Shown here in pieces: positions 1 through 63,150 of a stretch of 64,000 nt of DNA. The DNA is from Rubripirellula obstinata. GTDB lineage: Bacteria; Planctomycetota; Planctomycetia; Pirellulales; Pirellulaceae. The notes below the pieces were generated by a model, which saw nothing but the letters and a program-made list of their open reading frames with translations, was not told the origin of the DNA and ran no database searches. Where the stretch lies: positions 1 to 64,000 of the forward strand of contig NZ_LWSK01000006.1 of assembly GCF_001642955.1 (NCBI RefSeq), written 5' to 3'. The stretch's first letter is position 1; the number at the start of each line of letters is the position of its first letter. The position numbers were made by a program, and so were the translations under genes.

Positions 1-77
1 TTGCAATGTTCATTTTGCAATTTGCAATGTTCGACTGGTTCGCGAATAACATCACCCACCGCATTTTCATCAGCCCA

Positions 78-164
78 GGCATCGCCCCGCGCGTTGTGCT
101 GGACCCGAACGCGCGGGGCGATGCCCACGCGGTTAAACGATTTAGAAACCCTTCACGGCGTTGG
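78..164. mobile_element. Truncated copy of the 145-bp palindromic miniature element
   Basis: This stretch holds the central palindrome (arms 78-95 and 108-125, 18 bp, with a 12-nt loop) and the right end of the element described at 15228-15372. It finishes in the terminal inverted repeat CTTCACGGCGTTGG at 151-164. Homology stops at about 78 on the left, so the left terminal repeat is missing and no target duplication can be tested. The remaining sequence from 1 to 77 shows only a short TGCAATGTTC-like repetition and no gene. Confidence 0.75.
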
Positions 165-14588: not shown

Positions 14589-15047
14589 TCAGGTTTCTTC
14601 ACCCAGCGTTGGGCCGCCAAACTTTCGTCGAGCGCCGTTGGATTCGACGTCGTCGTCTCCGGCGGCAACAGGCGACTTCAACGCCCCCTGCAAAATTCGC
14701 CAAGACAGCAAGCAGCATTTTTGGCGGTTGGGCGTCAACGGGTGTCCGAACAATTCAAGCATTTCGTCTGCTGTGAACGCTTGGATCTCTTCCATGGTCT
14801 TGCCGTCAATTTTTTCCATCAGCATGGAAGCCGAAGCTTGGCTGATCACGCACCCATCCCCGTCAAACCAGGCTTCGATGATCTTGCCGTCGTCGTCCAT
14901 CTTCAAATCAATGTGAACGACATCGCCGCACAGCGGATTTTTCCCCTCGTCGGTATGCGTCGCCGTATCCAGCGGGCCACGATTGTAGGGATCCTCGTAG
15001 TGATCGAGGACATGTTCGGCGTAAATGTCTGGTTCGCTTGGGGACAT
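14589..15047 (-). CDS. sufU: SufU-type Fe-S assembly / zinc sulfurtransferase protein
   Basis: SufU accepts sulfur from SufS. The 152-residue protein has the three conserved cysteines Cys40 (NPLCGD with Asp42), Cys66 (GDGCVISQASASM) and Cys111 (NRQKCCLLSW), with a second Cys beside the last one. It carries an extra C-terminal tail of about 30 residues, rich in Asp and Gly, beyond the usual end. It lies just upstream of sufS on the minus strand and is probably cotranscribed, giving a SufS-SufU pair as in Gram-positive bacteria. Confidence 0.9.
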   Translation of the reverse strand: MSPSEPDIYAEHVLDHYEDPYNRGPLDTATHTDEGKNPLCGDVVHIDLKMDDDGKIIEAWFDGDGCVISQASASMLMEKIDGKTMEEIQAFTADEMLELFGHPLTPNRQKCCLLSWRILQGALKSPVAAGDDDVESNGARRKFGGPTLGEET

Positions 15048-15227
15048 CGCTTCGTTGCGTTTTAGAGAGTGTTTTAAGAGTGTCTGTTCGTATCTGTTCT
15101 CTGTTCGTATCTGTCCTTGGGACTTCTACTCAAAGTCTATGATCGTTGTCAAAAATCGCGAGGGCACTGCAGGTCAGTATCAACGCAGAACAATAGTCTT
15201 TGTTGCCGGGCCAAATGGGGCAATCGC

Positions 15228-15372
15228 CCAACGCCGTGAAGGGTTTCTAAATCGTTTAACCGCGTGGGCATCGCCCCGCGCGTCCATGCGGGGCGTAACG
15301 CGCGGGGCGATGCCCACGCGGCTAAACGAACTAAACCGTGTTTTCCGGGACCAAAACTCTTCACGGCGTTGG
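15228..15372. mobile_element. Complete 145-bp miniature inverted-repeat element with 7-bp target duplication
   Basis: The element begins with CCAACGCCGTGAAG (15228-15241) and ends with its exact reverse complement (15359-15372). Its centre is a perfect 24-bp palindrome (arms 15260-15283 and 15298-15321, 14-nt loop). The 7 bp CAATCGC directly flank it on both sides (15221-15227 and 15373-15379), which is what a target-site duplication looks like. It encodes no protein, so it would depend on a transposase supplied in trans. It lies between the divergent sufU and nrdJ genes. A second complete copy of the same length, in the opposite orientation, is at 62840-62984. Confidence 0.85.
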
Positions 15373-15379
15373 CAATCGC

Positions 15380-15978
15380 CCTGTGAAAATCTCGGGAAAA
15401 TCTCGGGAGGATCCCGGCACCAAACACCCACCAATAATTTCCTAATTCTGACAAGTTTTCCACTTCAGTCATGCAAATGCTATCAAAGATTCACTAACCC
15501 TTAACGAGCGTTGATCTTACGTCGCTTCGGTAGTCAATTGACACCCGTTGTTCACCTGTCCCCCGCGGCGCTTAAACAGCCTGCTGGCAACGGTTTAGGA
15601 CGTTCAGAAATTTGAATTTGACTCAGTCGGCCAAATCGCTAGGATTCTGCAGTCGCCCATATCTAGTGGTCAGGGCAGGCGGTAGCCACTACCGGTAGTG
15701 CTGTCATTAACGTTTGCTCAAACATTGAGGGCAGCGTTCTTGTTGGCACTTGCGGTCTCAAAAATTTCTTCCGAGGGATTGAGGCCGGCTAGCTTTTAGG
15801 CGACAAATGTACACTGTTTGGTTTGATATGTATTCTGGCTAGTAGTCGCCGTTTCGCACGGAGTTCGTTCTGGCTCGCAACGATGGTCCCTGATCCGATT
15901 GATTCGGTCGGAAATCGATTGCGAGATTCGGAGCGCCGCGAAGCTTGGCGTCGGTTACCGGTCCCACGGATGACACCT
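15380..15978. other. Intergenic region upstream of nrdJ
   Basis: No gene, tRNA or recognised riboswitch was seen between the miniature element and the nrdJ ribosome-binding site. A perfect 14-bp palindrome at 15687-15700 is listed separately. I looked for a cobalamin riboswitch and an NrdR box, since nrdJ is B12-dependent, and found neither. Confidence 0.6.
15687..15700. promoter_or_regulatory. Perfect 14-bp palindrome upstream of nrdJ (possible operator)
   Basis: The sequence CACTACCGGTAGTG is a perfect dyad about 300 bp upstream of the nrdJ start. It does not match the NrdR box consensus. A protein-binding role is only a guess from its symmetry and position. Confidence 0.25.
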
Positions 15979-62748: not shown

Positions 62749-63050
62749 CCAACGCCGTGAAGGGTTTTTAACTGTTTAACCGCGTGAGCATCGCCCCGCG
62801 CGTTCGGGGCCGGGGGACGCGCGACGCGCGGGGCGATGCCCAACGCCGTGAAGAGTTTTGGTCCAGTAAAACACGGATTAGTTCGTTTAGCCGCGTGGGC
62901 ATCGCCCCGCGCGTTACGCCCCGCATGGACGCGCGGGGCGATGCCCACGCGGTTAAACGATTTAGAAACCCTTCACGGCGTTGGGCGATGCCCACGCGGC
63001 TAAACGAACGAACACGTGTTTTCCGGGACCAAAACCATTCAAGGCGTTGG
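62749..63050. mobile_element. Older copy of the miniature element, interrupted by a younger copy
   Basis: The left end CCAACGCCGTGAAG is at 62749-62762. The right end is a diverged GGCGTTGG at 63043-63050. Inside its palindrome right arm lies the complete element 62840-62984 with the duplicated GCGATGC on each side. Removing the insert and one duplicate leaves about 150 bp with the normal arm sequence. The outer copy has no visible target duplication (ATCCCAC and GTACAGC flank it), as expected for an old insertion. The rest of the convergent gap is featureless apart from a GAACCCTGGCGGG stretch near 63070. Confidence 0.82.
62840..62984. mobile_element. Complete 145-bp miniature element inserted in another copy, with 7-bp target duplication
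   Basis: It has the same length and the same 14-bp terminal inverted repeats (62840-62853 and 62971-62984) as the copy at 15228-15372, in the opposite orientation; the loop of its central palindrome is the exact reverse complement of the other. GCGATGC occurs at 62833-62839 and again at 62985-62991. Deleting the insert and one duplicate recreates the canonical palindrome arm of the outer copy, which is direct evidence for insertion by transposition. Confidence 0.9.
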
Positions 63051-63150
63051 GTACAGCTTCTGGTGGACTGAACCCTGGCGGGCCCAGCTACGAAAGGATT
63101 CGCCAAAGACGGAACTTGTTCAGGACAGTTCCTCTAGTAGGGCCTACTTC

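Follow-up and report, generated by a model that had tools for sequence, protein, structure and literature searches.

The MITE copies in the window

Between a gene for a Rieske-type oxygenase and a gene resembling dethiobiotin synthetase, the window (the whole 64-kb stretch of DNA that was analysed) carries a complete 143-bp copy of a MITE family that is nested within an older copy of the same family; a second complete copy and a partial, chimeric one lie elsewhere in the same stretch. The individual features, including the terminal inverted repeats (TIRs) and their correspondence to the ends of an IS described below, are the following:

62841..62983, minus strand: inserted complete MITE copy, 143 bp, inverse to the family consensus, with perfect 13-bp TIRs
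62841..62853, plus strand: TIR CAACGCCGTGAAG of the inserted copy, corresponding to the left end of the IS
62971..62983, minus strand: TIR CAACGCCGTGAAG of the inserted copy, corresponding to the right end of the IS
62832..62840, plus strand: left target-site duplication GGCGATGCC of the inserted copy
62984..62992, plus strand: right target-site duplication GGCGATGCC of the inserted copy
62883..62960, no strand: central palindrome of the inserted copy, stem of ~30 bp, loop of ~16 nt
62750..63049, plus strand: older MITE copy, split by the insertion (62750-62840 and 62993-63049, 148 bp when joined)
15229..15371, plus strand: second complete MITE copy, 143 bp, with perfect TIRs, 97.8% identical to the consensus
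15220..15228, plus strand: left target-site duplication GCAATCGCC of the second copy
15372..15380, plus strand: right target-site duplication GCAATCGCC of the second copy
80..163, minus strand: partial, chimeric copy with one TIR and the palindrome, its other end being a different repeat (CATTTTCATCAGCCCAGG...)

When the flanks of the inserted copy (62841-62983; 96% identity to the family consensus) are joined with a single GGCGATGCC, a full-length older copy of 148 bp and 88% identity to the consensus is rebuilt, and the insertion site proves to be the right palindrome arm of that older copy. The nesting of a 145-bp element in an older member of its own family, which the original prediction had proposed, is thereby borne out, and every sequence and coordinate given in that prediction is indeed present in the window. 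The right TIR of the older copy (62750-63049) is degenerate (CAACGCCTTGAAT), and its own target duplication is not recognisable (TATCCCACC / GGTACAGCT). The second complete copy (15229-15371) is intergenic, lying upstream of two divergent ORFs that start at 15047 (minus strand) and 15996 (plus strand); its perfect flanking repeat had likewise been predicted, and both complete copies indeed possess perfect TIRs and perfect duplications. The claim that the element encodes nothing also holds, the 143 bp being devoid of coding capacity and crossed only by chance frames that enter from flanking DNA.

Chimeric variants in which a palindrome arm ends in GCGATGCCTGGGCTGATGAAAAT, as opposed to the usual arm and TIR, were seen in the window (1-164) and at C242:93853, C2:25587, C2:93663 and C1:238586, with downstream sequence that is partly common among these loci.

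How abundant is the family in its own genome? The motif CCAACGCCGTGAAG is matched eight times in the window when up to two mismatches are allowed (0.82 expected) and, with at most one mismatch, 356 times in the whole draft genome of 6.58 Mb, compared with five matches of a reversed control. The search for the 145-bp sequence across the genome, suggested at the outset, indeed returned many copies, with at least ~40 near-complete ones at 87-100% identity by BLAST. The draft assembly comprises 307 contigs, whose breaks often fall in MITE repeats, and the statistics given below refer to a sample of 1.82 of its 6.58 Mb, containing 57 TIR pairs that enclose a palindrome and 148 ends; extrapolation from this sample puts the full MITE copies of the genome, very roughly, at 200.

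Boundaries, empty sites and target preference

The original prediction gave the element a 14-bp TIR and a 7-bp target duplication. Whereas the repeats themselves are present, their sizes had to be corrected to 13 bp and 9 bp, because the first base of the supposed 14-bp TIR varies among copies (C, T, G or A) and tracks the target, being identical to the adjoining target base. With a 14-bp TIR, 22 pairs show an exact flanking repeat of 7 bp, and no pair shows one of 4-6 or 8-10 bp; with the 13-bp TIR CAACGCCGTGAAG, the 57 pairs include 18 with an exact 9-bp repeat and 35 that agree at seven or more of the nine positions, exact flanking repeats of any other length between 4 and 13 bp being absent from these 57 pairs. 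The mean flank identity across all 57 pairs amounts to 0.735 in the 9-bp register versus 0.18-0.36 in the other registers (5-13 bp), and the match per column is 0.67-0.81 in all nine columns, falling to 0.25, the chance level, in the next column outward. When flanks are deliberately mispaired between copies, eight or nine of the nine positions agree in 2.3% of the pairings, which probably reflects several insertions sharing one target. The flanks of the genomic copies, whose listing had been proposed as a check, thus yield many precise duplications, with a length of 9 bp and not 7 bp.

The insertion model was further tested on paralogous empty sites, and for eight of the 31 sites tested the flanks run continuously, with no gap, across a single unduplicated target (for instance, C1:204391 compared with C242:68166-68271). 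At seven of these sites at least two relatives carry the exact single target, and at C2:87673 one relative does; the element's own palindromes account for four of the eight loci, other repeats for the remaining four.

Another palindromic repeat of high abundance, which begins (C)GTAGCTGG-CCCGCCAGGGTTCAGTC and has GTAG at its end as known REPs do, is the target of some MITE insertions; it occurs in the flanks of C1:204391, at C242:68166-68271 and in the window at 63056-63092.

Nested insertions comparable to that of the window were also found at C24:9551, C2:87673, C246:43553 and C262:20512, and altogether palindrome arms contain 5 of the 22 clean insertions and 19 of the 148 ends. Is this more than the target sequence would dictate? 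From 17 clean insertions outside the family's own palindromes a symmetric target motif, GGGGNNNNNCCCC, was derived; the mean score of palindrome arms on it is 7.2, and arms make up 171 of the 869 sites in the 1.82 Mb that reach 7 or more. The motif alone leads one to expect 3.3% of insertions in arms, as against the 23% (5/22) observed (P 6e-4). However, the loss of genic insertions by selection would raise the expected share of the arms, and the excess is therefore not claimed as special targeting; motif and selection together may suffice to account for it.

A compound unit of 1072 bp (L112 12835-13906, i.e. C242:71935-73006) consists of two MITEs around 930 bp of passenger DNA with internal repeats, its outer flanks both reading AGTTGTACC, as if the whole unit had moved together. 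Its candidacy as an autonomous element was rejected, since it turned out to be a pair of MITEs and the DNA between them, in which no gene was recognisable. TIME-COMPs are composites with a Tn3-derived miniature element at either end (PMC13367494); the unit resembles them in the bracketing of passenger DNA by two MITEs and in the outer duplication of the whole, and departs from them in its IS4-type ends, in its passenger without recognisable gene and in being the single example found.

The central palindrome

Alignment of 52 copies gave a consensus of 145 bases with asymmetric ends, GGGTTTCTAAA on the left and ACTAACACGTGTTTTCCGGGACCAAAACTC on the right, and with a palindromic core, in which a stem of ~30 bp closes a variable loop of ~16 nt. 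The central hairpin of the original prediction thus stands, its stem, put there at 20+ bp, being refined to ~30 bp. Single-strand folding is strong (z about -13), as expected of any palindrome; the inserted MITE of the window folds as single-stranded DNA at -63.5 kcal/mol (z -12.6). Compensatory change between the arms was not found, the arms of one copy agreeing at 0.956 and those of different copies at 0.957 (permutation p 0.78), and retention of the hairpin by selection accordingly found no evidence in this comparison, given that own arms are no more alike than arms across copies. In Rfam, no family scored above its gathering score, and weak miRNA and sbcD matches amount to hairpin noise. 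Relative to the asymmetric ends, the loop TTCGGG..CAGCACGA is found about nine times in each orientation, a pattern suggestive of inversion between the two arms of the palindrome; TCCATGCGGGGCGAAA, the loop seen most often, almost always points the same way.

Where else does the palindrome occur? Among 59 palindromes of the own-genome sample, 41 have both TIRs, 17 have one and a single palindrome has none. On its own (about query positions 35-126), the palindrome is present in eight genomes of four genera, the own genome included, out of 241 genomes of the bacterial family searched, and for the other seven genomes none of the matches listed extends to the TIRs. In a complete genome of the same genus (G003; 688 BLAST matches), the palindrome without TIRs forms tandem arrays with a period of ~98 bp, located at L065 1128-2513 (13.5 copies), L061 and L067. 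The simplest reading of this distribution is that, in the lineage of the own genome, IS ends came to enclose a palindromic repeat that already existed.

In another genus (g22), this imperfect palindrome recurs as CGTTTAACCGCG...CGCGGTTAAACG, adjoining other repeated sequences (L328 1504-1580; L329 1160-1245 and 1500-1582; L330 1240-1320 and 1505-1585).

The probable partner IS, its transposase and the proposed movement of the MITE

At the start of C112, a single TIR is followed by coding sequence in place of the palindrome, and this led to the transposase gene with matching end repeats that had been proposed as a further thing to look for; it was found in the same genome, within an IS of 1595 bp:

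C266:24806-26400: full-length IS, 1595 bp, with a complete 484-aa ORF between MITE-type TIRs

The IS is identical to the MITE TIR over 13 of 13 bp at both of its ends, and the asymmetric MITE ends match the corresponding IS ends (24/30 on the left). Beyond ~20-30 bp from the ends, the MITE contains no IS sequence, its core being a different repeat, and the MITE is therefore not a simple internal deletion of the 1595-bp IS. Other IS copies are collapsed into contig ends, where two left/right pairs match over 9 bp, namely GGCTGACGA for C32/C112 and GACGACGCC for C261 paired with the right side of C266. The latter match suggests that the flanks in C266 come from different insertions and that the draft's sole full-length copy of the IS is probably chimeric, two of them having been joined in assembly. 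IS ends also lie in MITE palindrome arms (C303 and C52, and likewise the diverged relative C280), which indicates that the target preference of the IS is the same as that of the MITE. The same core end, C[AT]ACGCCGT, is found on homologous ISs in complete genomes from the genus, family and order of the own genome, where five out of five copies in G003, four out of six in G139 and four out of four in G030 are flanked by perfect 9-bp duplications.

The 484-aa protein matches Pfam DDE_Tnp_1 above the cut-off (4.5e-18), and its best NCBIfam model is IS4 (IS4_1; E 1.8e-31), with a score of 109.5 bits that falls just below the cut-off of 115. The catalytic triad, D152, D239 and E339, and the Y(2)R(3)E(6)K motif, Y332-R335-E339-K346, are both invariant in 10 homologues; the triad residues are separated by 86 and 99 residues, in agreement with D(60~110)D(100~150)E, where the spacing of 99 sits at the edge of the stated range. 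In the AlphaFold2 model (mean pLDDT 67.9, catalytic core mostly 80-93), a Tn5-like transposase fold is predicted, the top five Foldseek matches all being Tn5 transposase (E 7.6e-9 to 3.7e-7, TM-scores 0.34-0.38); a sequence search among solved structures returned no transposase relative of the protein. Strong homologues with a named record come nearly all from Planctomycetota.

Four features characterise the IS4Sa subgroup: ends of the form CA------T, target duplications 8-10 bp long, an overall size between 1150 and 1750 bp and the YREK motif (PMC2266710, Table 1). The partner IS agrees on all four counts, with CAACGCCGT (T at position 9), 9 bp, 1595 bp and YREK, and has a single ORF; it can thus be described as IS4Sa-like by ends, duplication, size and motif. 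The original prediction had been unable to name the family of the element; that of the partner is now nameable as IS4. The ISPepr1 subgroup (ends YT-AA-YTT, duplication of 7-8 bp) was dropped because the duplication was corrected from 7 to 9 bp, and the partner ends read CAACGCC.

The element is a bacterial MITE: it is short and non-coding (about 70-300 bp without coding capacity being the usual range), shares its TIRs with an IS, leaves a duplication of fixed length, 9 bp, and has empty sites. That it is non-autonomous, as originally claimed, is supported by the precise duplications, the paralogous empty sites and the transposase gene with matching ends. All this makes it highly likely that we are dealing with a non-autonomous, IS-derived element of 143 bp that is moved in trans by the IS4-family DDE transposase of the 1595-bp IS; judged by ends, target and duplication length, features read from sequence, it is very probably this transposase that mobilises the MITE. 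The transposase would recognise the CAACGCCGTGAAG ends common to IS and MITE and join them to staggered cuts 9 bp apart, preferably in a G-rich/C-rich symmetric target (GGGGNNNNNCCCC), and gap repair would leave the 9-bp direct repeats. IS10 and IS50, members of the IS4 family, transpose by cut-and-paste with a 9-bp stagger, and by analogy the same chemistry may apply here. As every MITE brings along a palindrome of ~80 bp, each arm of which offers a good target match (GGGCGATGCCC or its complement), and intergenic copies tolerate insertion, old copies would become landing sites and copies would nest; this may well be the cause of the over-representation of nested copies. Signs of recent activity are found in the IS ends, which are 100% identical between copies, and in the window MITEs at 62841 and 15229, identical at 140 of 143 positions.

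Could another transposase, or no transposition at all, explain the same observations? The genome holds a second, diverged IS of the family (C244:22956-24039, C84:8689-8753, C301:1-64), whose transposase is related (46% aa identity) and whose ends read GCAACGCTATGAAGCATTTTGG, and one might envisage that this IS4-family element (around C244, C84 and C301), rather than the 1595-bp IS, mainly moves the MITE. Its TIR, however, has two mismatches to that of the MITE, as opposed to 13/13 identity at both ends of the 1595-bp IS, and the longest open frame assembled for it (395 codons) stops directly after the catalytic E, which renders a leading role improbable, even if the diverged element could also act on the MITE. 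Still less credible is the idea that recombination or an assembly artefact, and not insertion, created the nested arrangement. The 307-contig draft is often broken in MITE repeats and some copies have mismatched flanks, but the window copy has both junctions intact together with a perfect 9-bp duplication, nesting recurs independently and in the same register at C24, C2, C246 and C262, and mispaired flanks so seldom (just 2.3%) agree at eight or more positions.

A different thought is invited by the long palindromic core, which seven other genomes of the bacterial family contain without TIR arms and which forms tandem arrays in G003: might the palindrome, and not the TIRs, be the mobile determinant of a REP/BIME-type element served by a tyrosine (RAYT/Y1) transposase? 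Y1 transposases are not known to make target duplications, whereas here the 9-bp duplications adjoin the TIRs and not the palindrome, 58 of the 59 palindromes in the own-genome sample adjoin at least one TIR, and the TIRs match a DDE IS, so that for the own-genome copies this possibility is largely refuted and its probability very slight. REP/BIME repeats of GTAG or CGTC type are known in Planctomycetes too (PMC3733652); the MITE palindromes resemble them in being intergenic and of high copy number, and differ in having DDE-type TIRs and target duplications. Assignment to REP/REPIN elements, which are RAYT-associated, lack a duplication and bear a GTAG/CGTC tag, was likewise rejected, the MITE having 9-bp duplications at its TIRs and palindromes that end in GTTTAACC.

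With mobilisation by the 1595-bp IS as the favoured account, the MITE is a new family of a known kind, no description of which was found in the literature searched. Bacterial MITEs moved in trans by a resident IS include RUP/IS630-Spn1 and Nezha/ISNpu3-like (PMC3049150). Like these, the present element is short and non-coding, shares its TIRs with an IS, is flanked by duplications, reaches high copy number and has strong secondary structure; unlike them, it has an IS4-family partner (one, admittedly, whose NCBIfam IS4 score stays just below the cut-off), a duplication of 9 bp, and a palindromic core that is common to other genera and contains the element's own preferred target.

What is the significance of such a core? 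It is conceivable, if rather unlikely, that the element profited from enclosing a palindromic repeat found in several genera of the bacterial family, because its own transposase lands there readily and without harm. Each copy would then carry two self-targets, and nesting would be an intrinsic way of growing that spares the host, not an accident; the palindrome that expands into TIR-less arrays in a related species would be a repeat in its own right, spreading by separate means. The family accounts for many of the contig breaks of the draft genome, and its description here pairs a MITE of high copy number with the probable source of its transposase in a planctomycete-type genome. With a self-target in every copy, the family also offers a clean natural system for telling apart the effects of target preference, of nesting and of selection against insertion into genes.
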